From Dermatophagoides farinae (Eukaryota > Arthropoda > Arachnida > Sarcoptiformes > Pyroglyphidae), in contig NC_134677.1 in NCBI RefSeq assembly GCF_024713945.1, positions 6,699,001-6,763,000 on the forward strand: 64,000 nt of DNA, given 5' to 3'. Under the pieces are notes generated by a model that was not told the origin of the DNA, made no database searches, and saw nothing but the letters and a program-made list of their open reading frames with translations. The stretch's first letter is position 1; each line of letters starts with the position of its first letter. This document shows, piece by piece, positions 42,468 through 58,094 of this stretch. The position numbers and the translations under genes are program-made.

Positions 42468-45400
42468 ATGGATCCATCTAGATGGATGGATCCTTATAGT
42501 CATCTACGACAAGTGGCATCATCAACAACGACGGCGACAAGAAATCAACAATTGATGAATAATGCTGTTTGTCAATCACAACAGATGATGACTCAAAACA
42601 GAAATGGTCTGCATCATCACATGGCTGCTGCTGCCGTTGCCGCCGCCAGTGTTAATACGCTTCCATCAAATAATTGTCAACAGCAGCCGGCTAAAAATCT
42701 AAATATCTGTAATACGACCAAAACAAGCCAAAAACAACAACATCAAATGAATCAATATGGAACAAAAACAATGAATTCAGCAACCTGTGTTGATCATAAT
42801 CATCAATCATTTATAAATAGCCATCATTATAGATCTTCAAATTGTTCCCCATGGTTGTTTCCAAATTCAAGGCAGCAGCAGTACACAAATCATGTTGACA
42901 ATTCTTCATCATCATCTTCATATGATATAAATGGCCATACAGATAATGCAGCTTCGAATGTGCCATCATTCAATTCAAATCCATTTGTTTCTACAGGTCA
43001 TTTGCCACCCCCACATCATCATTCAGGAGTTTATGATCCCAATTTTGCCGCAGCAGCGGCCGCCGCTGCATCGTTTGCTGCCCATCAACAATCACAAACG
43101 TCAAAATCCACAGCAAATCAATATTTATCATCGATGGCTTCGGATTTGGGATTCATGGATCATACTGCTATGACAATGAATAACAAGTCAAATGTCGCTG
43201 ACAATTCGTCCAATTATAAAAGTGGTGTCAATGGATCAACGCCTGTCGAACAACTACAATCCACGAAAACAACGGCCAAAGGAATGAATAATATGCATGC
43301 AACATCCACTGATTCCTGTATGGATAGTGCACCTTCATTAAGAGATTATCATAATGGATTTTTCTGCCCACATTCATTACAACCGCCAACAAATGGATGG
43401 CACCATGCACAAAATTTTCCAAATAACAATGGACATGTGTTTGATCATCATCATCATCATCAACAACAACAACAACAACAACAGCAACAACATGGCCACA
43501 TGATGAATGGTGCAGTAACGCCAGACAATGTGATTGATACAAGTTCATCGCGCGTTTATTCAAAGAATCTAAACCCATCGTTATCCAACTGTATGACTCC
43601 ACATGGTTTGCCCACCTGTCCTTCAAATACGAATAAAGTCAATTTGTCAACAACATCTAATCAACATTTGTCATCGAACAAATCTCATCACAATAATAAT
43701 AATAAAAGTGCTAATAATCAGAATATGAATAATAGTACTACCAATTCACTAAATACAAATAATCATCAACAAACATACCAAAATGGTAATTCATCATCAA
43801 CGGCAGCATTATCACATTCGTTTCCTAATATTCACCCTCAAGCTCCTCTTCAATCAAAATATGATCTAATGCAAAATCTATCATCATCGATGAATTCTAC
43901 GCATCGTAATAGTCACAATTATCATCATAAACACCAGAATTCGCTTGTTGATCCATCTGATTTGGGCGCCAAGTTTGCTCAAGCAGCAGCTCAAGCTCAT
44001 GATCATTATACAGCAGCTTGTTTAGCGGCCGCTCAGGCTATCCACCATCATCATCAGCAGCAGAATACTGAATATGCAGCGTTCCAACAGCAACAACATC
44101 ACCATTATAATCATTCATCGCAACAGCAACAACAGCAGCTACATACAGCGAATAATGTGAATCATAAACCAGATTCAACCGCATCTCATGCTCATCATCA
44201 GCAATACATGTCTTCGACCGCGATGAACAATGCTTATGCAGCTGCCGCAGCAGCTGCACATAATCATCATCATCATAATGGTAGCAATTGTTATCATCAA
44301 TCTTCAGATTATCCAACACAAACTGCAACAAACTTCAAGCGGGGATCAACAAATCATCATCAACAGAGTTTTCTCAATTATCCGTCATCATATTTATTTC
44401 ATCGATGACACATCCTCATCATGCAGATGATTTTCCAATGAATTCTAATCCATTCAAAACGCATCATCATTCGAACTTATTCTTTAATGATGATGTCTAT
44501 TCTCCATGTATTTCTGAAACCAACAATGTTTATCCTAATCATCAGCAGCAACAGCCACAACCACAACATACATCATCATCCACATCGAGTAAATCATCAT
44601 CGAAAACACGAAAAAGTACATTATCGCAAAAAGTCAACAATAATAAATTAAACGATTTATATCAACCAGAATTTGTAGCCAGTTCGACAAATTCTTGCAC
44701 ACCAACGCCAGTGGCCAATATCAATGGAAATAATTGCTGTTTGGCTAGCCAAACAAATACCAATAGTAATAACAATACAATTTTATGCAATAATAATAAT
44801 GGCACATCACATTCACGTTGTTCATCGGTGGCCAGTACTCATAGTGGCCATGGTCAACAACAACAGCCATCGATCGTAACGAATGATACATACAATTATA
44901 ATTATCCAAGTCCAGTTACAACAAATCTTTCTGTACACTCACCTTTTCAACAAACCCGGTCGAGTACGTCCAATTCTAGTCATTCCAGCATTAATTCTTC
45001 ATGTGCTCTAAGTACAACAACAACAAATGGTTCACAAAATATTCAAAATAATGCTACTAATGGTGGTGGTACTGGTCCAGAATATTCAAATTATGGAACA
45101 CCAAATTCAGCACCGCCATTTCAGACAACGACAACGACGATGGGAAATGTTTCACAAACTCCTACACCGACACCTGGTTATCCAACGCCACCAAGTAGTG
45201 TTGGTCATTCGAATTCTCGTTGCAATTCGAATGAAGAATTATCACCATTTTCAAATAATTCCATGTCGAGTAATATGAGCCATCAATCGTATGGACGAAA
45301 TGATTACAATAAATCGACAAGTTCTTGTGGTTCACAAATATCACCTAAACAAGTTAACAATAATATTGATGGTACTAATAATATGTCGGACAGTTTACCG

Positions 45401-48400
45401 AATTTCAGTTCCTGCATGGTGGCCGCTGCAGCACAGCAAGCATCTCAACAGCAAACTAATTCAAGTCAACGACAACAACAAAGCTCTCCAAATTTGTATA
45501 CTTCAAATGTGTTGGATAATAATGCTTATAAATCTCCACAGTATTATTCCATAAATAATGGAACATCCGTAACATCGATGTCTTCTAATGATTCAGTTGA
45601 AACGACTAGTTATACGAATTATGTTGATTCCAATAAAGATTCGACGACAGTCGTTGGACAATTGGCATCAACAACCAATCAAACATCATCAACAATAAAG
45701 CTTCAGATGGATGATCAAACATCTACACTAACTTCTTATGATTTTACTAATTATTCAGAATCAAATTCTGAGAATTCATTTGGTCATAATTCATATCCGG
45801 AAACATCCAAAACGGAAATATCCTCTTGTTCAAAAGAACCGGATGTCCGACATCGACAATCATCGAATAATTCTCTTCTGATATGCCATGAAAATAATAA
45901 AAATAGGGAATATTTACAGCACCAAAATGATGATGATGGTGTTGTCGATGATGAAGACGATGATGATGACGAAGATGATGATGATGAGGATGATAGTGAA
46001 AAAGATAATTTCAATTTAAGCTTCGAATCTGTGATACAACCAATCGTCGATAATGTTGATCTATATGACGGTGAACTGCACCAACAGCGGCCATCGCCAC
46101 ATTCAAAGCAACAGCAACCATCAAATATTGTCCAAACTATGAACATGAATAATACTTTGGAACCAGAAGCTGTTTCATTCGAAACTACAATGGATGAATT
46201 GAATTTCATTCCAGCTACAACATCGACAACCCCGACAACATCAACATCAGCAGCAGTAGTTGTAATACAAAATGATAAAAGTAGTGATAACTATGGAAAT
46301 CAGCAGCAGCAGATTACTACCATGACCTATCAAGAATCTAGTCATGATACTATAACCGATAGCCGAGTAATTGACAATGAATCAGGATCAACAACTGTGG
46401 CACCTGCAACTAATGTTGTCATGAACTGTGGTAACTCAATCGAATCATTAATAGATTCATTACCAAAAACTGAATGTCATTTGCCGACAGTGGATAAATC
46501 TGGTGATACTGAAACGGAATTGATGCCACTTGAAGTTGTACAAACGACTGACAGAAATACAACGTTGACAAGCGATGATCATCACCATCATCAACATGGT
46601 AATAGTAATGCTGATAGCTTCCTATCCGATCTGGCACCTTTAATGAATGACAATTCGAAAATTGCCTTGATGGAATCTACATTTAAATCTTCGAATCAAT
46701 CGTTAGAAACGACCGTACAAGAACACGCTGATGTTGCTAATGGTACAACGTTCGATAAAATACAAAAGAGCCTTTTTGATGATCATTCATTGCCAACGGT
46801 TGAGTTTCATCATCAATCGAATAAATCTCCATCTTCACAACCATCAATGACTATTTCAGGCACGGATGAAGATCCTGACAATCAATTCAGAGATGTTGAT
46901 GAATTTCTCAAGAGTAACTTTAAAGAATCTCCAGTCAATCATCAGGCTGATGCTTCAATAAGTGCGGATTGTAAAAATGAATTTATTGAAGGAAAAGTCA
47001 TCTCTGCTGTTCCAGTCGCTCATTCTTCGAAACAAATCGATCAAGATTCATCTATTCAACAGGTACCAAAAGATCAACTTTCTACGTCAAAAGTTTTATC
47101 AGCATTGCCATCTTCGCTGAAAACGTCCACATCAAATTCACAATCTCGAAAATCATCATCCAAATCCTCTTCGACAAATACTCATTTAGATTCCACCACA
47201 AAAGGTTGCCCCGAAAATCAATCGAATGAGACAAAACAACGGCAAAAACCTAAAACTTTGACAAATAAACGTAAATTAGATGCAGAAAATAATAATCATA
47301 ATAATAAAGATGATGCAAACATTAAGAAAAAATCAAAAAAAGAAAATTTGCCCGACATCAATAATAAATCTAAATCTCGTAGCCACTTGAATGACCGAAA
47401 ATCGAAAAAAACGGAAAAAAATAAAAATAGTCCTGTTGAGTTAAATTCGAATGGTAATTGTCCACCATCGGCTACAGATAAAGATAAACAAGATAATATA
47501 GTGTTGAAATCGAAAAAAGCCAGAACAGTCAATACACAAAAAATATCCTCAACAAATTATGATGATAGCACCAAATCAATCATCAATCTCGCTAATGAAA
47601 ATCAATCGCTTGGTCTCATTCTCCCTGTGTTATCGTCAATAATGTCTACCACGAAAAATAGTCTTTCGAAGAATAAGAACGAAAAGAAAAAATTTACCAG
47701 CACTCAGAATGGCAACAATAAGAAAAAAGAATGCTCTAACTTTGAAGTTAATGACAAAAATTTGATTACGCTATCTAAAAATGAAGATAAAAAATCTGTT
47801 AAAAGTGGTAAAACTGATAAGAAACTGGCTAAAAATAATGTAAAGCCACTTCCATCGTTGGATAATAAACCAAAAATTTCATCATGTTCTGAAGTGAAAG
47901 AAAATTGTAACAAAAATATCCCAACAACAGCATCCACAACGATGACCGCATTAAAATCATTGCCTATATTATCTTCAGATTCTTTTTCCTCTTTATCATC
48001 AAAAACAATAAATGACAAATCAATTCCAATAGCTCCTAAAGACATATCGAATCAAATTATATCTAATATTCAAAACTCTTTAAAAATGACTAGTATTAAC
48101 ACTAAAAAACTTCCCATTTCACATCAGCAGCCACAATTGAAACCGAAAAATAATTGCAACAAAAAAGATTTGTCAAACAAAAAACTATTGAAAAATCAAT
48201 CATCAGAAAATAAACCGTTATTACCTTCACCGTCATCAACATCTGCAAATAAAATGGCGACAACACCTGTAGCTGCAAAAGTGAAGAATGATCTATCGAA
48301 CCTAGCGCAAGCTATTACAACTAAACCCAGAGTATCATTGGTCACAAACAATGCCAATCAGCAGCAAGCATTGCTATCGCCAAATCTTTTCAACGCTTCT

Positions 48401-50066
48401 CAATGTTTGAATGCAGCTAAACCTTCGGCTGTGAATCCCACGACATTGACAAATGTGGCTCCAACATTGATTGTCAATCAAGGTCATTCTGTTCAACCAT
48501 ATCAAGTGTCTCCTATGACCAACGCTGTTTTGATTTCGATACATCCAGCAAATCCTACTCCGATTCCATCATTAACAGCCCAGTCTTTCATAGCTTTGAA
48601 TACGCAAAGTGTTGCCAGTTCGACTACTAGTAACACGACAACTACAGCGACCGGTTGTAGCCCGAATTCATCCCGTCGAAGATCTCAAGATAAAAAGATT
48701 TCAACTATCCGCGAAGGTTTGATGCGAACAGGTGATTTTGTTGTCGCTGAAGAAGAATCACACTTGGAATTGCCCGTCATTTGGCGTATAGAAGGCAAAA
48801 GTCTTTTGCAAAGATTCGAACCATCAGAACAGAATGGAATCACCATCTATATTAATACTTCATCGGTAAAAATTAAATTAAATTTCTTATCTCTTATATT
48901 GAATTTAATTCTCATTTTTTTCAATTACCAAGTATTCTGCATGGAATCCTACAGTGAGACAAAAATATTTAGGCCTAGATGTGAGAATTATGGGATGTAA
49001 TCGAACAAGAATTGTGGTAGAAAAAATAGGTCTCACTAGAAACAAAAATGAAAGGTAATTGAAACAAGAAATTTAATTTCAAACAATAATAATTTTTAGT
49101 CATTCTCTTCACAGAGATGCTTCAAGTTTTAATGAAAAGGAGAACAATTCGTTGCCAACGGATTCATCACCATCGAACGTTACCACTTATGTGGAAAATT
49201 TTGAAGTTTTAATTCAGACATTGATCAGTCAGGCATTGGATCCGAATTTCATTGCCGAAATTGTCAAAGAAAATGGTAATGATTTCTGCTTGATTTTTAT
49301 TATTAATACCAATCTTATCTTCTTCATAAACAGATGAATATTTCCTATCACATATGCAGACAATCGAAGAAGTTTGTCATACACGAAGGTCACGTTTTAT
49401 CGCCAAAATCAAATGGGATAGTGTTATACTTAAGAATTTCGAAACATATTCCAACATACAGATCAATAAGCAGAATAATGTTGGAGACCTTCGATGTCGT
49501 GTATGTCATTTAGTTGTGATTAGTGTTTTTTATACAATATTGAATTTCTTTTATTTAAAAAACAGTCATGCCACGACAATTGGAGTACCAAAATACTGTA
49601 TTTTGATGGTGAACCATATAATCGTGATACTTTAGAAAAATTATCTCATGATACTATCGTTGCTGCAGCTGCCGATAATAAAAAAGTTAAAATTGCTGCA
49701 TGTGATAGTTGTACAGAGAAAATTTTCCTTTATTCCAAATTATATCATCATAGATTGAATTTTTTCCTGTTATGCAAAGCAAAAGTAAGCATTTTCCTAA
49801 ATTTACTTCATTATATTCACTTGTGATAATCTTGAAATTCAATAACAGGTTGAGGAAATTCAAAGCAAGGATGCCAATAAAGAATCACATATAATTCTAC
49901 ACGAATGCCTTCAAGATAATGTTTGGATGAAAAAAGTTTGTATTGATTTTTTTTTTGAACAAATTTAAAGAAATTTTTAATCTCTTTTTAAATATTCTTT
50001 CTATTGATAATTTAGATGTTTCAAGAGCTTGAAACTTTACTCTATACTTGTGACAGTCAATGTTGA
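42468..50066 (+). CDS. large Gln/Asn/Ser/His-rich nuclear protein with C-terminal DUF4211-like domain (QSER1/PRR12-like)
   Basis: Eight exons, 42468-44367, 44427-48865, 48933-49054, 49115-49275, 49334-49500, 49566-49784, 49849-49935 and 50016-50066, giving 2381 residues. Residues 1-2050 are low complexity: His, Ala, Gln, Asn and Ser runs, an acidic block (genomic about 45930-46005) and Lys-rich segments, consistent with a disordered nuclear regulator. The conserved part begins IREGLMRTGDFVVAEEESHL and PVIWRIEGKSLLQRFEP. It continues across exons 3-8 to a domain with C2262-x2-C2265, GEPYNRDTLE, C2309-x2-C2312 and LYHHRLNFFLLC. This C..C-GxPYxxxTL-C..C-LxH pattern is that of DUF4211, found in animals in QSER1 and PRR12 (a chromatin-linked pair). 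The first intron call (44368-44426, 59 nt) is the weakest: the two long frames differ, and a donor at 44281 would also fit the phase. Domain assignment is from memory of the family pattern. Confidence 0.78.
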
Positions 50067-51829: not shown

Positions 51830-53808
51830 ATGCCTGCCGCTGCCAAAGTTGAACGGATCAATGTTGGATCTGGTGGTGATCAACAACAACCACAGCAGAA
51901 CAGCAAGATTGTCGCAAACAATAGCAGCAACAATAATAATGTTAATGCTGCTCAAGATCCTACCAAAATTGCTAATACCATAATCGAGAAAAAGATTCGT
52001 AATCTGGAAAAACGAAAGGTGAACAATCACTATATTTGATTTTTTTCCTAATTTCTAATATTTTTCTTTTTTTTAATTTTCGAATAAAAGTCTCGTTTGC
52101 TCGAACTCAAAGTTTTGGCTGAAAAACAAGAAGAAAAAGAACTTTTACAAAAGGATCAAATTGAAGCCTTGAAAAAACTCGATTCCGTTGTCGAAATGAT
52201 TGACATGCTTAAAGAAATCAATAAAAACATTTCCGATAGTCTCAATGATGTAATGAATCATGACATTAAGAAAAATTTCATTTTATTCGTTTATTTACTA
52301 ATTTGATTTATTAATTTTTTTCATAGTATGCCAAACAACAAAAGAAACAGCAAAAAAAGGAACAACAGGACAAATTGATCGAAAGAAACCAAGCTGAATT
52401 GGAACGAATCAAGTTATTTCTTCGTATTCAGAAAATTTTGCCTTGTGTCACATATCTCAAACAACATAACAAACAAGAGGATTCATCATCGAGTAGCGGT
52501 GATAATGATAATGTCACCACTACTATGGTAAGATTTACTTTTGTTCATTTGTGTGTTTGATTTGTAATTTTTCATGATACAATTTAGCGGTTGGATGATA
52601 AACATGTTGATGCCTTAGAAAATTTGGCAAACGATTCGAATGCTGATCTTGACGAATATGCCGAAAAAGTTCATCTGATACTAGACGGTAGTAAGAAAGA
52701 ATTCTCGAATGGTATCACTCATTTGGAAATGAAGGAATTTTGTATCAAAATTATCGAGAATAAATATCTCGAAAACATTCAATCTACACCGAAACTGGAA
52801 ATATCAGACGAACCGACAGTTGATTCAAACAATGTTGATTGTTCTGATGTTAAGGTTGCTGATGTCTCTAATAACGAATCTCAATCAAAGGTAACTATTT
52901 TTCCAGATTAAAAAACGTTTCATTATTTCATTATGTATCATTTTTCTTGCAAGACCAACGACAAACTACAAGTAACAGATGTGAATGCCGAAAATCCGAT
53001 CCGATCATCATCCACCGGATCAGCTAAACCACAAGTTGAAACTGATTTGCAAAAAGATCCTGCTGTTATCGCATCCGGATTCGCTTATCCACCTTTTACG
53101 AATGGAAATTGTCCTGTTAATTTTCTCCCTGCAAACAATACAGCAATAGAATATTCACCTTTACTTATCCACCAAGCCGTTGGATCGATCCCTTCACAAA
53201 CATTTAGTAATCAGAACTACTTCATTTCTAACAAAGTTCCAATTTTCGATCAGGCTGTTCCTGTGGTTTCCAGTAACCAGGTTTCATTTACAGATATGAT
53301 GGCTTGTAATTCAGCTGAACAACATCCTCAAGATCATCAAGATTCCACTAATAAATTCAATGGTCCAATGAACGGAAAAATTGAGCAATCGGAAAATGTG
53401 GAAAAACCTGAAAATTTGAATGGTGGAGACACAACTAGTCAGCAAGATAATGATTCCATCAACAAAATGAACACGAATGTCGATTCATCTCAAATAATCA
53501 ACGGTCATGGCGGTTACCAGAAACGATCAAATTATCGCGGTCGAGGTGGTAGTGGCGGAAGAGGAGGTTCATCTTTCCGAGGTGGTCGTCCAAATAATCC
53601 TAAAAATTTCGGTGGCTATTTTAACGGTGGTGGCGGCGGTGGACATCAAGTTAATCCAGTGAATAATTACAATGGAACAAATCGACCATTAATTCGCCAA
53701 AATGGTGGTGGTCGTGGTTCATATCGTGGTTCAAACGACCGTGGAAATGGAATGAATCGTAATCATTACAATCCGAATATTAGCAATCAACAACAGCAAC
53801 AACCATAA
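51830..53808 (+). CDS. Capr: Caprin-family RNA-binding protein
   Basis: Five exons, 51830-52018, 52091-52249, 52327-52527, 52588-52890 and 52954-53808, all joined in phase 0, giving 568 residues. The N-terminal half carries the Caprin helical homology region: IEKKIRNLEKRKSRLLELKV, DQIEALKKLDSVVEMIDML, then DYAKQQKKQQKKEQQDKLIE, which matches the near-invariant Caprin block. The C-terminus from about residue 478 is an RGG/Gly-rich tail (YRGRGGSGGRGGSSFRGGR and FRGG/GRGSYRG-type repeats). Family knowledge: Caprin binds mRNA through RGG motifs and partners with G3BP/Rasputin and FMRP to repress translation and form RNA granules. At 568 residues it is shorter than Drosophila Caprin. I see no extra C-terminal globular domain. 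AATAAA hexamers begin at 53974, about 165 bases past the stop. Confidence 0.93.
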
Positions 53809-54128
53809 GGACCAAGTGCTACATTTGCTTTGAAATCATAATTTTACGATGAAAATGAAGTGTAATATATATCTACATCTAAAACAGAAAGTTGGTATTG
53901 CTCAAACCATAAAAATGATGATGATTGCGAATGATTCCCTTTGGTATTCATTTTTACGATTTTTTAAACAAAAAATAAATAAATAAAAATTCTGTTGTAA
54001 ATTCTAATACGTTTGTTTTGAATGGTTGTCTTTGATTTTAAGTTGTCTGTATGAATAATAAAACATATGATGATATGATGATTGAATATAATTATAAAAA
54101 TAATAGGAATAGTTGATAATTTTATTTC
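53809..54128. other. Caprin 3' UTR and CHCHD7 upstream region
   Basis: Compact 320-base spacer. Overlapping AATAAA signals at 53974-53987 probably end the Caprin transcript, leaving about 140 bases for the promoter of the CHCHD7-MIPEP pair. No TATA-like element is obvious. Confidence 0.5.
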
Positions 54129-54443
54129 ATGGAAACAATTAAGAAAAAAAACCGTGCTTCTCAACGACTTCGTGATCTAAATCCTTGCTATGACGAATCG
54201 CTCATTTCCCTAAAGTGTCAAGAATCCAAAGGTAAAGATCATTGCGAACAAGAAATTGCCAATTACAAAAGCTGTACTAATTTTTGGAATCAAGTATATG
54301 ACCTTCGTAAATTTTTTGGTATTTGCCCATATTCGCCCAAAGGGGAAGAACGACAACAAATTAAAGATTCATTAAAGAGAACAAAAAATCCTAAACAAAC
54401 TTTAGTAGAAATAGCTGAAATCTATCAAAAATCGAAGCAATGA
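54129..54443 (+). CDS. CHCHD7: CHCHD7 / COX23-like twin CX9C mitochondrial protein
   Basis: Single exon, 104 residues. It shows the twin CX9C motif exactly: C20-x9-C30 and C39-x9-C49, framed by SQRLRDLNPC and YKSCTNFWNQ. This order (QRLRD-NPC ... C-x9-C-xxFW) matches CHCHD7, whose yeast counterpart is Cox23. Family knowledge: such proteins are imported into the intermembrane space by the MIA40 disulfide relay and form a two-helix hairpin; Cox23 is linked to cytochrome oxidase assembly. The tail after FGICPYSPKGEERQQIKDSL is a little longer than in vertebrates. There is no intron. The TGA stop overlaps the ATG of the next gene (ATGA), so the two probably share one mRNA. Confidence 0.88.
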   Translation: METIKKKNRASQRLRDLNPCYDESLISLKCQESKGKDHCEQEIANYKSCTNFWNQVYDLRKFFGICPYSPKGEERQQIKDSLKRTKNPKQTLVEIAEIYQKSKQ

Positions 54444-56569
54444 TACGTTTGAATCGCTGGTCAAATTTCATAGTTAACAATCGTCATGTATCCAATTTCA
54501 CTTCATTAAGCAATCAACTTAATAATTTAACTCAACATTCAAAGGTTGTACCACAGATAAAATATCATAAAGGTCTTTTTGGCCATCAAGTTTTGGCCGA
54601 CTTTAATGGATTCTATATTTTCCGCCAAAATGCCATTACACGAGCCCAAAGTTTAGTGAATGAAGCCACTTCCGATAAACGAAACCGAAAAATGGTGCAT
54701 ATATTTGATGAATTATCTAATTCACTTTGTAAGGTTGCTGATCTTGCCGAGTTTATTCGAATTGCACATCCTGACCGTAACTATACCAATGCAGCTGAAC
54801 AAGCTAGCATCGAAATTAATGCTGAAGTTGAAAGATTGAATACGAATCGAATACTCTATAACTCGTTATCAAATGTTGTTCAAAATGGTGATATCGTACC
54901 GACAACGCCTACCGATGATTATGTGACTAAACTTTTTCTTTTTGACTTTGAACAATGTGGTATACATTTGGACGAAAATGTTCGTAATGAAGTTGTCCGT
55001 TTAAATGAACATATTCTTCACGTTGGAACATATTTCATGTACGGTACGACTAAACCACGAATCGTTTTCAAAAAAGAAATTCCAGAGCACTTGTGGAAAT
55101 ATTTTCCTATTGATAACAATAAGATAGTCATCTCAGGTCTGCAAAATGAATCGAATGACGCTCAACTTCGTGAAATTTCGTTCAAACAATTCCTTCAATA
55201 TGACGATCATCAAGAACAACTTTTAATGGAATTGATTTACTCTCGGCTTAAATTGGCTAAGATTTGTGGATTTAATTCATTCGCTCATAGAGCTATTAAT
55301 GGTAGCATTGCGGGAAGCCCGGAGATTGTCTGGAATCTAATTGATACTGTCAATACAATAATACGCCATAAATCCGAAGCTGATTTCAATTATATGCTTA
55401 AATTAAAGTCAGAAGAAACTGGTGATCCATCAGCTCAGTTGATGCAATGGGATGTGCCTTATTATACGCAAAATCATAAGATTAAAAAGTTTGGCCATGA
55501 TATCACTCAATCTAGTCCGTATTTTTCGATAGGCAGTTGCATGGAAGGTTTAGATTTGATTTTTCAATCAATATTCAATGTAGAATTAAAAATTAGTGAC
55601 ACTACTCAAGAAGATTTGTGGCATCCATCGGTGATCAAATTGGCAGTTAACGATCAAAAGACCAGCAAAACTTTGGGTCATATTTATTGTGATTTCTTCG
55701 TGCGACCCAATAAACCATATAACGATTGTCATTTTACTATTCAAGGTGGATGTGATCTGCCAAATGGTAAGCTTATCTAAAAAGTTTTGTCATAGATTAA
55801 TAATCCTTTAATTATTTCAGGAGAATATCAATTGCCGATAGTCGTAGTGTTTCTAAATTTTCCCAACGCTACCACATCATCGCCTACATTGTTATCACCA
55901 TCAATGGTCGATAATTTATTTCATGAAATGGGTCATGCCATGCATTCAATGTTGGCCAGGACACCATATCAACATATTACCGGAACAAGATGTTCAACAG
56001 ATTTAGCTGAAGTACCCTCAATATTAATGGAGCATTTCGCTAATGATCCACGTGTTGTATCTAAATTCGCCAAGCATTATCAAACCGGAAAATCTATTCC
56101 AGAGAATCTTTTACGCAGCTGGATCACTTCCAAACATTTGTTCAATTCAAGTGATTTACAATTGCAGGTTTTCTACTCGGCCTTAGATCAATTATATCAC
56201 AGTGAGAATCCAATAAAAGGCTGTAATAATACGACCGATGTTCTGAATATGATACAGAATCAATACTACGGCATACCAAACATATCGAACACATCATGGC
56301 AATTGCGATTTGGTCATTTGATTGGTTATGGAGCTAAATACTATTCCTATCTTGTATCGAAAGCTGTCGCAAATTCTATTTGGAACAAACTGTTTATAAA
56401 CGATCCATTTTCCTCTATTGCGGGTCAAACTTATCATGATCAAGTCCTTGCACATGGTGGCGGTAAACCCCCAAAAGAGATTGTTGAATCCATTTTAAAT
56501 GAAACGATAAGTGCAAATTACTTAGCTAAATCATTGATTAATAATATTGAATCGAATGAATTGTGTTAA
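54440..56569 (+). CDS. MIPEP: mitochondrial intermediate peptidase (M3 metallopeptidase)
   Basis: Two exons, 54440-55766 and 55821-56569, split by a 54-nt intron in phase 1, giving 691 residues. The N-terminus MIRLNRWSNFIVNNRHVSNF is basic and lacks acidic residues, as expected for a matrix-targeting presequence. The catalytic zinc motif is HEMGHAMHSM (H477, E478, H481), with the third ligand E506 in DLAEVPSILMEHF. The upstream segment KGLFGHQVLADFNGFYIFRQ and the block TLGHIYCDFFVRP also fit MIPEP. Family knowledge: MIP/Oct1 removes an octapeptide from proteins already cut by the matrix processing peptidase. Length is typical of the family. Its ATG lies inside the end of the CHCHD7 frame; the presequence supports this start. 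AATAAA at 56615. Confidence 0.95.
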
Positions 56570-57193
56570 ATTTATATAGTAGTAACAATAAGAACGATTA
56601 TTTCTTTTTTAAAAAATAAAACATTATCTGAATTTTATTATTTTACAATTATCATAATCAATGCTCGTAATTAAATAGATTTTTTTTCTCGCTTGAGTAT
56701 GTGATCAGGCTTGCATGTATTATCAACAAAGTCAATGAATGCAAAATTGAATAATTGATTGACAGGAAATAACAAATTTTAGAATATGTATGCATGTGTG
56801 TGTGTGTGTGTGTGCAAAATTAAAATTCAATAATTAAATACCGATAATGTTTTTTTCGCCTGTGTATTTATGTAAAATGAAATAACCCAGAATAACTAAT
56901 CGGTTTTAGATATAGATCTATCCAGAATTCTAGAACAGGAAAATAGTAATTATCATTATAGTATTTTGGCGATTCCATTTTTTTAGTGAATATTTTACAA
57001 AAATAGAGATTTTTTTTTGACTAAATCTCTGTGATATTTAAATGAATATAAATCGAATTATGAACAATTGTGAATGTGAATTAAATTAAATAATGAGAAA
57101 AAATTGAATACTCCCTTCTCATTATTTAGTTGGTAAAGTTACAATAAACCAGATGAAAGCCAATGATAAATCCAAGCTGAATTTTTGTCTTTT
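56570..57193. other. convergent spacer between MIPEP and Polycomb
   Basis: About 620 bases of AT-rich 3' flank shared by converging genes. It holds the MIPEP polyadenylation signal (AATAAA at 56615-56620) and a GT run at 56797-56813. No gene is seen. Confidence 0.55.
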
Positions 57194-58094
57194 TCAATGA
57201 ATATTTGCCGATTTTAGACTGGTTATCGAATCTGTTGTTGATACAGCGATGCTTTTCATTTCTGTTCTTTCTTTAAAAAATCCTTGAGGAGTTCTGCATT
57301 CACGAACGGTTATAGTACAATCATTTTCTGTTACATCGGTTACCATAATGTGATCAACGATCTTATTTTGCCGGCGCCAAAATTCCGGTGGCGGTCCAAT
57401 CGAAAAATTTGATTTGGGCACTTGTTGTTCTTTAACGTTATTGGTTTGGTTTGGACACTCTGGAGGTTCATCATCATTTTCTTTGATAATTTTTGTTGGT
57501 TGCTGTTTGCTGATTTCATTTTTATTGTTATTATCCTGTTTATCAAATGACGTTTCACCAGAATTTGACTATTATAAAACATTGAAATTGATTACTATTT
57601 TAAACATATTCAGGAATTGTAATTATACTTACATCATCATAATCGGCATCTGTAGAATCTACTTGATCACTATTGTCGATTGTTCGATCACTTTTCAATT
57701 TGGATACTTTTGCTTGTGTGGAAGACTTATCCGATAATGATTTTCTCTTATTATATGTCGTCTCTTTTGCTGTCGAGCTTTTGCGAGAGGATCCATCCTG
57801 GCTATTTTTATGGTTGGTCTCAGCGCTAGCCGATGAAGGATTCGTTTCATTTGCTGTCGATGTGGTGCTTGATGATTTACCACGACGATTGGCTTTGTTT
57901 GCCCGTCTTTTCTGTGCTTTATTGAATGAATCGATTAATCGATGATCTAATATATTTTCTGTTGGTTCCCATGTATTGTATTTTTGTGACCATCCTCGCC
58001 ATTTGACAAGATATTCAACCCTATTCTTTCTTGTTCGTTTTTTCAAGATACACTCCGCGGCGAAGACCCGTTCTCCCACCGCTGATAGTTCCAT
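57194..58094 (-). CDS. Pc: Polycomb / CBX chromodomain protein
   Basis: Two exons, complement of 57194-57568 and 57633-58094, split by a 64-nt phase-0 intron, giving 278 residues. The N-terminal chromodomain spans about residues 9-60: [20 protein letters not shown], then [20 protein letters not shown]. The aromatic cage residues F11, W32 and W35 are present. The middle is Ser/Thr/Lys-rich and disordered. The C-terminus has the Polycomb box, with [20 protein letters not shown] and TPQGFFKER, which separates Pc/CBX2/4/6/7/8 from HP1 (HP1 has a chromoshadow domain instead). Family knowledge: Pc reads H3K27me3 and is the CBX subunit of canonical PRC1, contacting RING1 through the C-terminal box. 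The protein is shorter than Drosophila Pc (390 residues). An E2F-like site lies about 1.1 kb upstream. Confidence 0.95.

Follow-up and report, generated by a model that had tools for sequence, protein, structure and literature searches.

A CHCHD7 gene and an M3 peptidase gene overlapping by ATGA in the mite Dermatophagoides farinae: a possible dicistronic pair

Dicistronic genes in Drosophila and related arrangements in other systems

The loci of Drosophila that have polycistronic transcripts only show gaps of −34 to +319 nt (PMC4528330). Eighteen fly pairs have coding sequences that overlap in different frames, and 26 of the 36 genes concerned are found on polycistronic transcripts; the overlapping pairs named in the available text of this source are all fly genes, with neither a mite pair nor a CHCHD7-MIPEP pair among them (PMC4528330). 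According to the same text, most Drosophila dicistronic pairs fail the requirements of scanning, and IRES may be common among them (PMC4528330). A preliminary description of the mite locus presented here had called its tight overlap of two genes unusual in animals, which was overstated, as FlyBase annotates 159 dicistronic pairs (PMC4528330).

Some of these systems can be compared with the mite pair one by one. In the stoned and snapin genes of Drosophila, in-frame AUGs of the first cistron attenuate the second one; as in the mite, two proteins are encoded by one strand and the first cistron lacks in-frame AUGs, an absence that is reported to govern translation of the second cistron in the fly genes (PMC3372440). 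However, the genes are different ones, and the dicistronic mRNA was demonstrated for stoned and snapin whereas it is inferred from the DNA for the mite pair. The original paper on the AUGs of the first cistron of stoned and snapin is reportedly that of Wall et al. 2005. The Drosophila lemming locus (lmgA/lmgB) also has a short conserved upstream ORF (85 aa) on a dicistronic mRNA, but it differs by a 92-base spacer, by three more in-frame AUGs in ORF1 and by a second ORF that is described as poorly translated and dispensable (PMC3372440). In green algae, the bicistrons expressed by leaky scanning are marked by short leaders, a weak context of ORF1 and a small number of AUGs (PMC11892635). They share with the mite pair the weak start context of ORF1, the scarcity of AUGs in ORF1 and the closeness of the two ORFs, but they have been tested experimentally, are widespread in these algae and belong to another kingdom (PMC11892635). 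Coupled reinitiation, which is mostly viral and takes place on AUGA or UAAUG, involves the same kind of stop/start overlap (PMC5972666), whereas the mite junction carries neither TURBS motif 1 nor a nearby structure.

Among the publications listed for mites and Acari, no title or beginning of an abstract reports nuclear dicistronic genes; polycistronic refers to transcripts of the mitochondrial genome in the two papers examined for this word (PMC9218549; PMC2797822), and operon occurs in another one only as a company name (PMC7738191). The one publication found for CHCHD7 together with MIPEP deals, in the portion available, with gene fusions in cancer. Given the counterparts listed above, the mite arrangement, if transcribed as supposed, would join a kind that is uncommon but already known from flies.

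The CHCHD7 gene and the peptidase gene

The window, i.e., the whole stretch of 64,000 nucleotides of D. farinae DNA that was analysed (6,699,001–6,763,000 of contig C1), contains the two genes on its forward strand (Table 1). The size of the genome, its richness in AT and a short intron are in keeping with a mite.

Table 1. Features of the CHCHD7-peptidase locus (positions in the window)
Feature	Position	Strand	Remarks
Overlapping AATAAA signals	53974..53987	+	Probably 3' end of the upstream RGG-rich gene (stop 53808)
Further AATAAA	54057..54062	+	If signal of the upstream gene, about 70 bases left before the CHCHD7 ATG
TATAAA, candidate TATA box	54093..54098	+	Start site would fall very near the CHCHD7 ATG
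CHCHD7 (COX23-type twin CX9C protein)	54129..54443	+	Intronless ORF, 104 aa, TGA stop, no Met after the start
Out-of-frame ATG in CHCHD7, G at −3	54190..54213	+	Closed after 7 codons
Out-of-frame ATG in CHCHD7, T at −3	54298..54375	+	Closed after 25 codons
ATGA stop/start overlap	54440..54443	+	CHCHD7 TGA and peptidase ATG, different frames
M3 peptidase (probably MIPEP), exon 1	54440..55766	+	Presequence-like start, then N-terminal half of M3
Peptidase intron, 54 bases, GT-AG	55767..55820	+	Joins the frames to give 691 aa with one terminal stop
M3 peptidase, exon 2, contains HEMGH	55821..56569	+	Pfam PF01432
AATAAA, likely shared polyadenylation signal	56615..56620	+	45 nt past the peptidase stop

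The twin CX9C signature of CHCHD7, read by eye from the translation, consists of C20-x9-C30 and C39-x9-C49. The structure of the human protein (PDB 2LQT) matches residues 11–79 with an E value of 8.8e-11, the runner-up having only 0.042, and the C-terminus is about 17 residues longer than that of the human chain (residue 79 of 104 pairs with residue 77 of 85). The two CX9C motifs and the overall similarity place the protein in the CHCHD7 family, although neither Pfam nor NCBIfam has a model that detects it. The gene is found at a single place in the 62.4-Mb genome (22 contigs), the sole other match having an E value of 0.46. A scan of viral contigs returned 38 pattern matches, none of which was confirmed as a relative.

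The downstream gene encodes an M3 peptidase, as it combines a Peptidase M3 domain with the HExxH zinc site, which reads HEMGH. Pfam PF01432 (Peptidase_M3) matches both the query covering exon 1 (54440–55780, E = 1.2e-34) and that covering exon 2 (55823–56566, E = 5.2e-70), and an alternative intron of 57 bases, ending at 55823, would lead to a protein of 690 aa. Residues 1–53 include no D/E, six R/K and four H; among 1,221 open stretches of 53 aa that begin with ATG, 46 lack acidic residues and contain five or more Arg/Lys. This composition is presequence-like, i.e., as would be expected for a real mitochondrial presequence. Without splicing, translation could begin only at 54440 if this N-terminal region is to be retained, since an in-frame TGA at 54416, 24 bases upstream of the ATG, closes the frame.

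The 11 and 12 distinct PDB sequences that match the peptidase belong to neurolysin, thimet oligopeptidase, oligopeptidase A, Dcp and a K-26 dipeptidyl carboxypeptidase, and none is named MIPEP. MIPEP is the most likely identity of the enzyme, by elimination and on the basis of a presumed similarity to human MIPEP. Apart from a distant M3 paralogue, located on contig C8, the exon 1 query hits a single locus of the 62.4-Mb genome; a scan of a collection of genome contigs with the same query gave 22 pattern matches, of which none was confirmed as a relative. The paralogue (C8:55340–59395, minus strand) carries, as judged by eye, FGKFGFVLQH in place of HExxH. It looks catalytically dead because the zinc motif is lost, which would leave the window gene as the sole intact M3 peptidase found. 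COX23/CHCHD7 and Oct1/MIPEP, the latter involved in the processing of imported subunits, may be functionally linked through the biogenesis of complex IV.

The ATGA junction

The common use of ATGA by the CHCHD7 stop and the peptidase start at 54440–54443, reported in the preliminary description, is borne out by the sequence and by the ORFs. The same holds for its statement that both frames are well supported; in the present analysis, this support comes from the twin CX9C motifs and the match to 2LQT for the first one, and from PF01432 in both exons, HEMGH and the acid-free N-terminus for the second one. The frames and their overlap are thus direct observations. The codon-usage score (90-nt windows) is positive in the ORF1 frame for windows starting at 54129–54339, and in the peptidase frame from window 54429 onward; the training set of this score took in the peptidase ORF, which was long enough, and not CHCHD7. 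Two distinct, family-supported proteins are therefore encoded in separate frames.

The genome of D. pteronyssinus is reported to have about 12,500 genes separated by gaps of about 540 bases (PMC7738191). As a rough estimate from these values, the whole genome should contain a handful of gene pairs spaced by exactly −4, provided that this spacing is tolerated. The exact four-base register is therefore unremarkable where same-strand neighbours number in the thousands, as they do in a compact genome. The notable feature is the zero intergenic space between two complete, unrelated and family-supported genes.

Overlaps were surveyed in 264 kb, made up of the 64-kb window and of 200 kb from elsewhere (C1:6000001–6200000). 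This survey yielded 82 same-strand coding pairings with a spacing of −60 to +300, some of which are one junction with different ATGs, and many of the close pairings are probably exons split by short introns. Exact ATGA overlaps were found at two junctions, 54440–54443 and 44405–44408. The second one joins two low-complexity ORFs rich in Q/N/S/H (42468–44408, 646 aa, and 44405–49000, 1531 aa), neither of which has a Pfam match; the frame could be restored by 25 GT-AG pairs (donor in 44200–44408, acceptor up to 44700), none of them with a common donor type. These ORFs probably belong to a single regulatory gene, disordered and interrupted by a frame break, and, as this second ATGA probably lies inside a single gene, the motif by itself proves little. 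Five more same-strand junctions with a spacing of −59 to +2, uncurated as to families, lie near offsets 58523, 126649, 135871, 146786 and 166353 of C1:6000001–6200000; they may be exons, frame breaks or further overlapping genes.

Transcription signals around the pair

Downstream of the CHCHD7 stop, no AATAAA is encountered before 55709, at a distance of 1,265 nt and within the peptidase CDS. The next AATAAA (56212) also belongs to this CDS, and that at 56615 is the first outside coding sequence. An AATAAA is present at no more than 1,000 nt from the end in 36 of the 41 long coding ORFs of the 264 kb, some of these ends being exon ends. Since coding sequence contains 74 AATAAA in 56,697 nt, 1,265 nt without any would occur with a chance of about 0.19, and the missing AATAAA therefore does not point to selection. 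What it contributes is the lack of an evident 3' end belonging to CHCHD7 alone. The variants CATAAA, GATAAA and ATTAAA are present in the region; cleavage directed by the ATTAAA copies at 54360 and 54371 would fall ahead of the stop codon of CHCHD7.

No GTRAG donor was found in 53809–54440, and the only GT in 54085–54128 is GTTGAT. With neither an AATAAA for 1,265 nt, an absence seen directly in the DNA, nor such a donor, the locus is most simply interpreted as giving a shared mRNA, i.e., the CHCHD7 mRNA would run on through the peptidase gene. The start site of this mRNA might be set by the TATAAA at 54093, which may also be there by chance in AT-rich DNA. Such a start would exclude from the leader six ATGs located at 54022–54078, all of which are closed by 54116.

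Upstream of the pair lies the RGG-rich gene (51830–53808), whose ORF 51830–52039 is presumably caprin-like and whose last ORF (52933–53808) has no Pfam match. On the other side, a chromodomain protein of 164 aa is encoded by the minus strand (57600–58094; Pfam Chromo, E = 1.9e-18) and is convergent to the peptidase gene. No tRNA was found by a scan of the 64-kb window. A search for sigma-70 promoters and terminators, which is irrelevant to an animal genome, gave seven promoter-like sites (4.6 ± 2.0 in shuffles) and no terminator.

A model for the expression of the pair

The following model can be proposed, to which we give about an even chance of being correct. One promoter, located in the 320 bases that separate CHCHD7 from the upstream gene, would serve both genes, and a single dicistronic mRNA would end at the polyadenylation signal at 56615. 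CHCHD7 would be translated from the first AUG. The peptidase would be produced mainly by ribosomes scanning past this poorly placed first AUG and encountering few rival AUGs in ORF1, and a minor share of it would come from termination at UGA followed by restart on the overlapping AUG.

The AUG content of ORF1 is an observed feature: the gene has no in-frame internal ATG and two out-of-frame ones, both closed ahead of 54440. It was compared with 158 coding windows of 309 nt taken from 41 ORFs of the genome, which are not independent of each other. Two or fewer ATGs were found in five of the 158 windows, no in-frame ATG in 24 and the two features together in four; no unclosed ATG was found in 12. 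Synonymous resampling of ORF1 gives a mean of 4.5 ATGs and a probability of 0.038 for two or fewer. The scarcity is thus nominal (P about 0.03–0.04), for a short ORF and with several measures looked at. At position −3, the start codon of CHCHD7 has a T and that of the peptidase a G, and a purine was found at this position in 21 of the 30 ORF starts examined. ORF1 therefore combines a poor start context with a low number of AUGs, as leaky scanning would require, the context being poor at −3 only. Two features speak against this mechanism, a G at +4 of the CHCHD7 start and another one at −3 of the internal ATG at 54190.

TURBS motif 1 is a sequence of UGGGA type, complementary to 18S. No TGGGA occurs in 54129–54460, i.e., reinitiation of TURBS type finds no such motif there, and the RNA of the junction shows no structure beyond that of shuffled sequences, 168 of 200 of which fold at least as well (z = +1.0). 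As both TURBS motif 1 and a stable structure are absent, leaky scanning as the main route, with some reinitiation, is favoured. The features of ORF1 would fit leaky scanning at least as well as termination-reinitiation, although the scarcity of AUGs is also compatible with reinitiation (PMC11892635); taken together, the evidence is suggestive but not strong. The preliminary description had proposed a dicistronic mRNA with termination-reinitiation. Its shared mRNA is retained as the simplest reading, in view of the missing AATAAA and GTRAG and of the ATG-poor ORF1, whereas its mechanism is less favoured, in view of the missing TURBS motif 1 and stable structure.

Alternative explanations

The most serious competitor, which is possible but doubtful, assumes two mRNAs, a long one that would run through the peptidase gene but serve CHCHD7 alone and a shorter one, for the peptidase, that would start from a promoter inside the CHCHD7 coding sequence, as the preliminary description had also considered. 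TCATTT resembles the arthropod initiator (consensus TCAKTY), and one copy at 54202 could play this role. However, this is the single TCAKTY match in 54000–54445, which we estimate to be about the chance number in AT-rich DNA; no TATAAA lies within CHCHD7, and a leader beginning at 54202 would still include the ATG at 54298. A dicistronic mRNA from which the peptidase would be made mainly by coupled termination-reinitiation at AUGA, as in caliciviruses and influenza B, appears decidedly unlikely. Overlaps of the AUGA and UAAUG type belong to the arrangements listed for this process, but reinitiation after long cellular ORFs is termed presumably very rare in the text available (PMC5972666), and the lack of TGGGA in 54129–54460 and of structure at the junction (z = +1.0) also argues against it.

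It is still less probable that the peptidase mRNA has its own 5' end, acquired from a distal promoter through a spliced leader or by spliced-leader trans-splicing. A splice-site model built from 42 automatically chosen introns, the percentiles of which are relative to this training set, gives, in about 53810–54700, 30 sites that reach at least the 10th percentile, 16 of them donor-like and 14 acceptor-like. They include an acceptor at 54414 (43rd percentile) and, inside CHCHD7, donors at 54232 (GTAAAG, 43rd) and 54274 (57th). This model is noisy and must be considered poor, as the own donor of the peptidase gene, GTAAGC, ranks at the 12th percentile. The lack of a GTRAG donor in 53809–54440, with just GTTGAT in 54085–54128, speaks against such a leader, and a search with the SL1 model of Rfam gave no match but detected none of 14 controls either. 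The earlier claim that there is no room for a separate promoter outside the CHCHD7 coding sequence thus ignored that a distal promoter could act through a spliced leader, a possibility that indeed finds little support in the sequence. Finally, an artefact, i.e., a single gene that is fused or frameshifted or a wrong start of the peptidase, is extremely improbable. Frame breaks can create such junctions, and the ATGA at 44405–44408 probably lies within one disordered gene; however, both proteins look complete and belong to different families, the first 53 residues of the peptidase have six Arg/Lys without any acidic residue, and a stop at 54416 closes the peptidase frame ahead of its start.

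Significance

A more far-reaching proposal, which we regard as unlikely, is that the pair is one of a class present in compact mite genomes, with a nuclear dicistronic mRNA conserved in mites that would fix the ratio between a complex IV assembly factor and a presequence peptidase by leaky scanning together with AUGA reinitiation. If the shared mRNA is confirmed, the locus would offer a naturally compact example of one animal mRNA encoding two conserved mitochondrial proteins with zero spacer, and a good test bed for the access to second cistrons in animals, leaky scanning versus reinitiation. For annotators of compact mite genomes, the pair is a caution that overlapping same-strand genes should be neither dropped nor fused.
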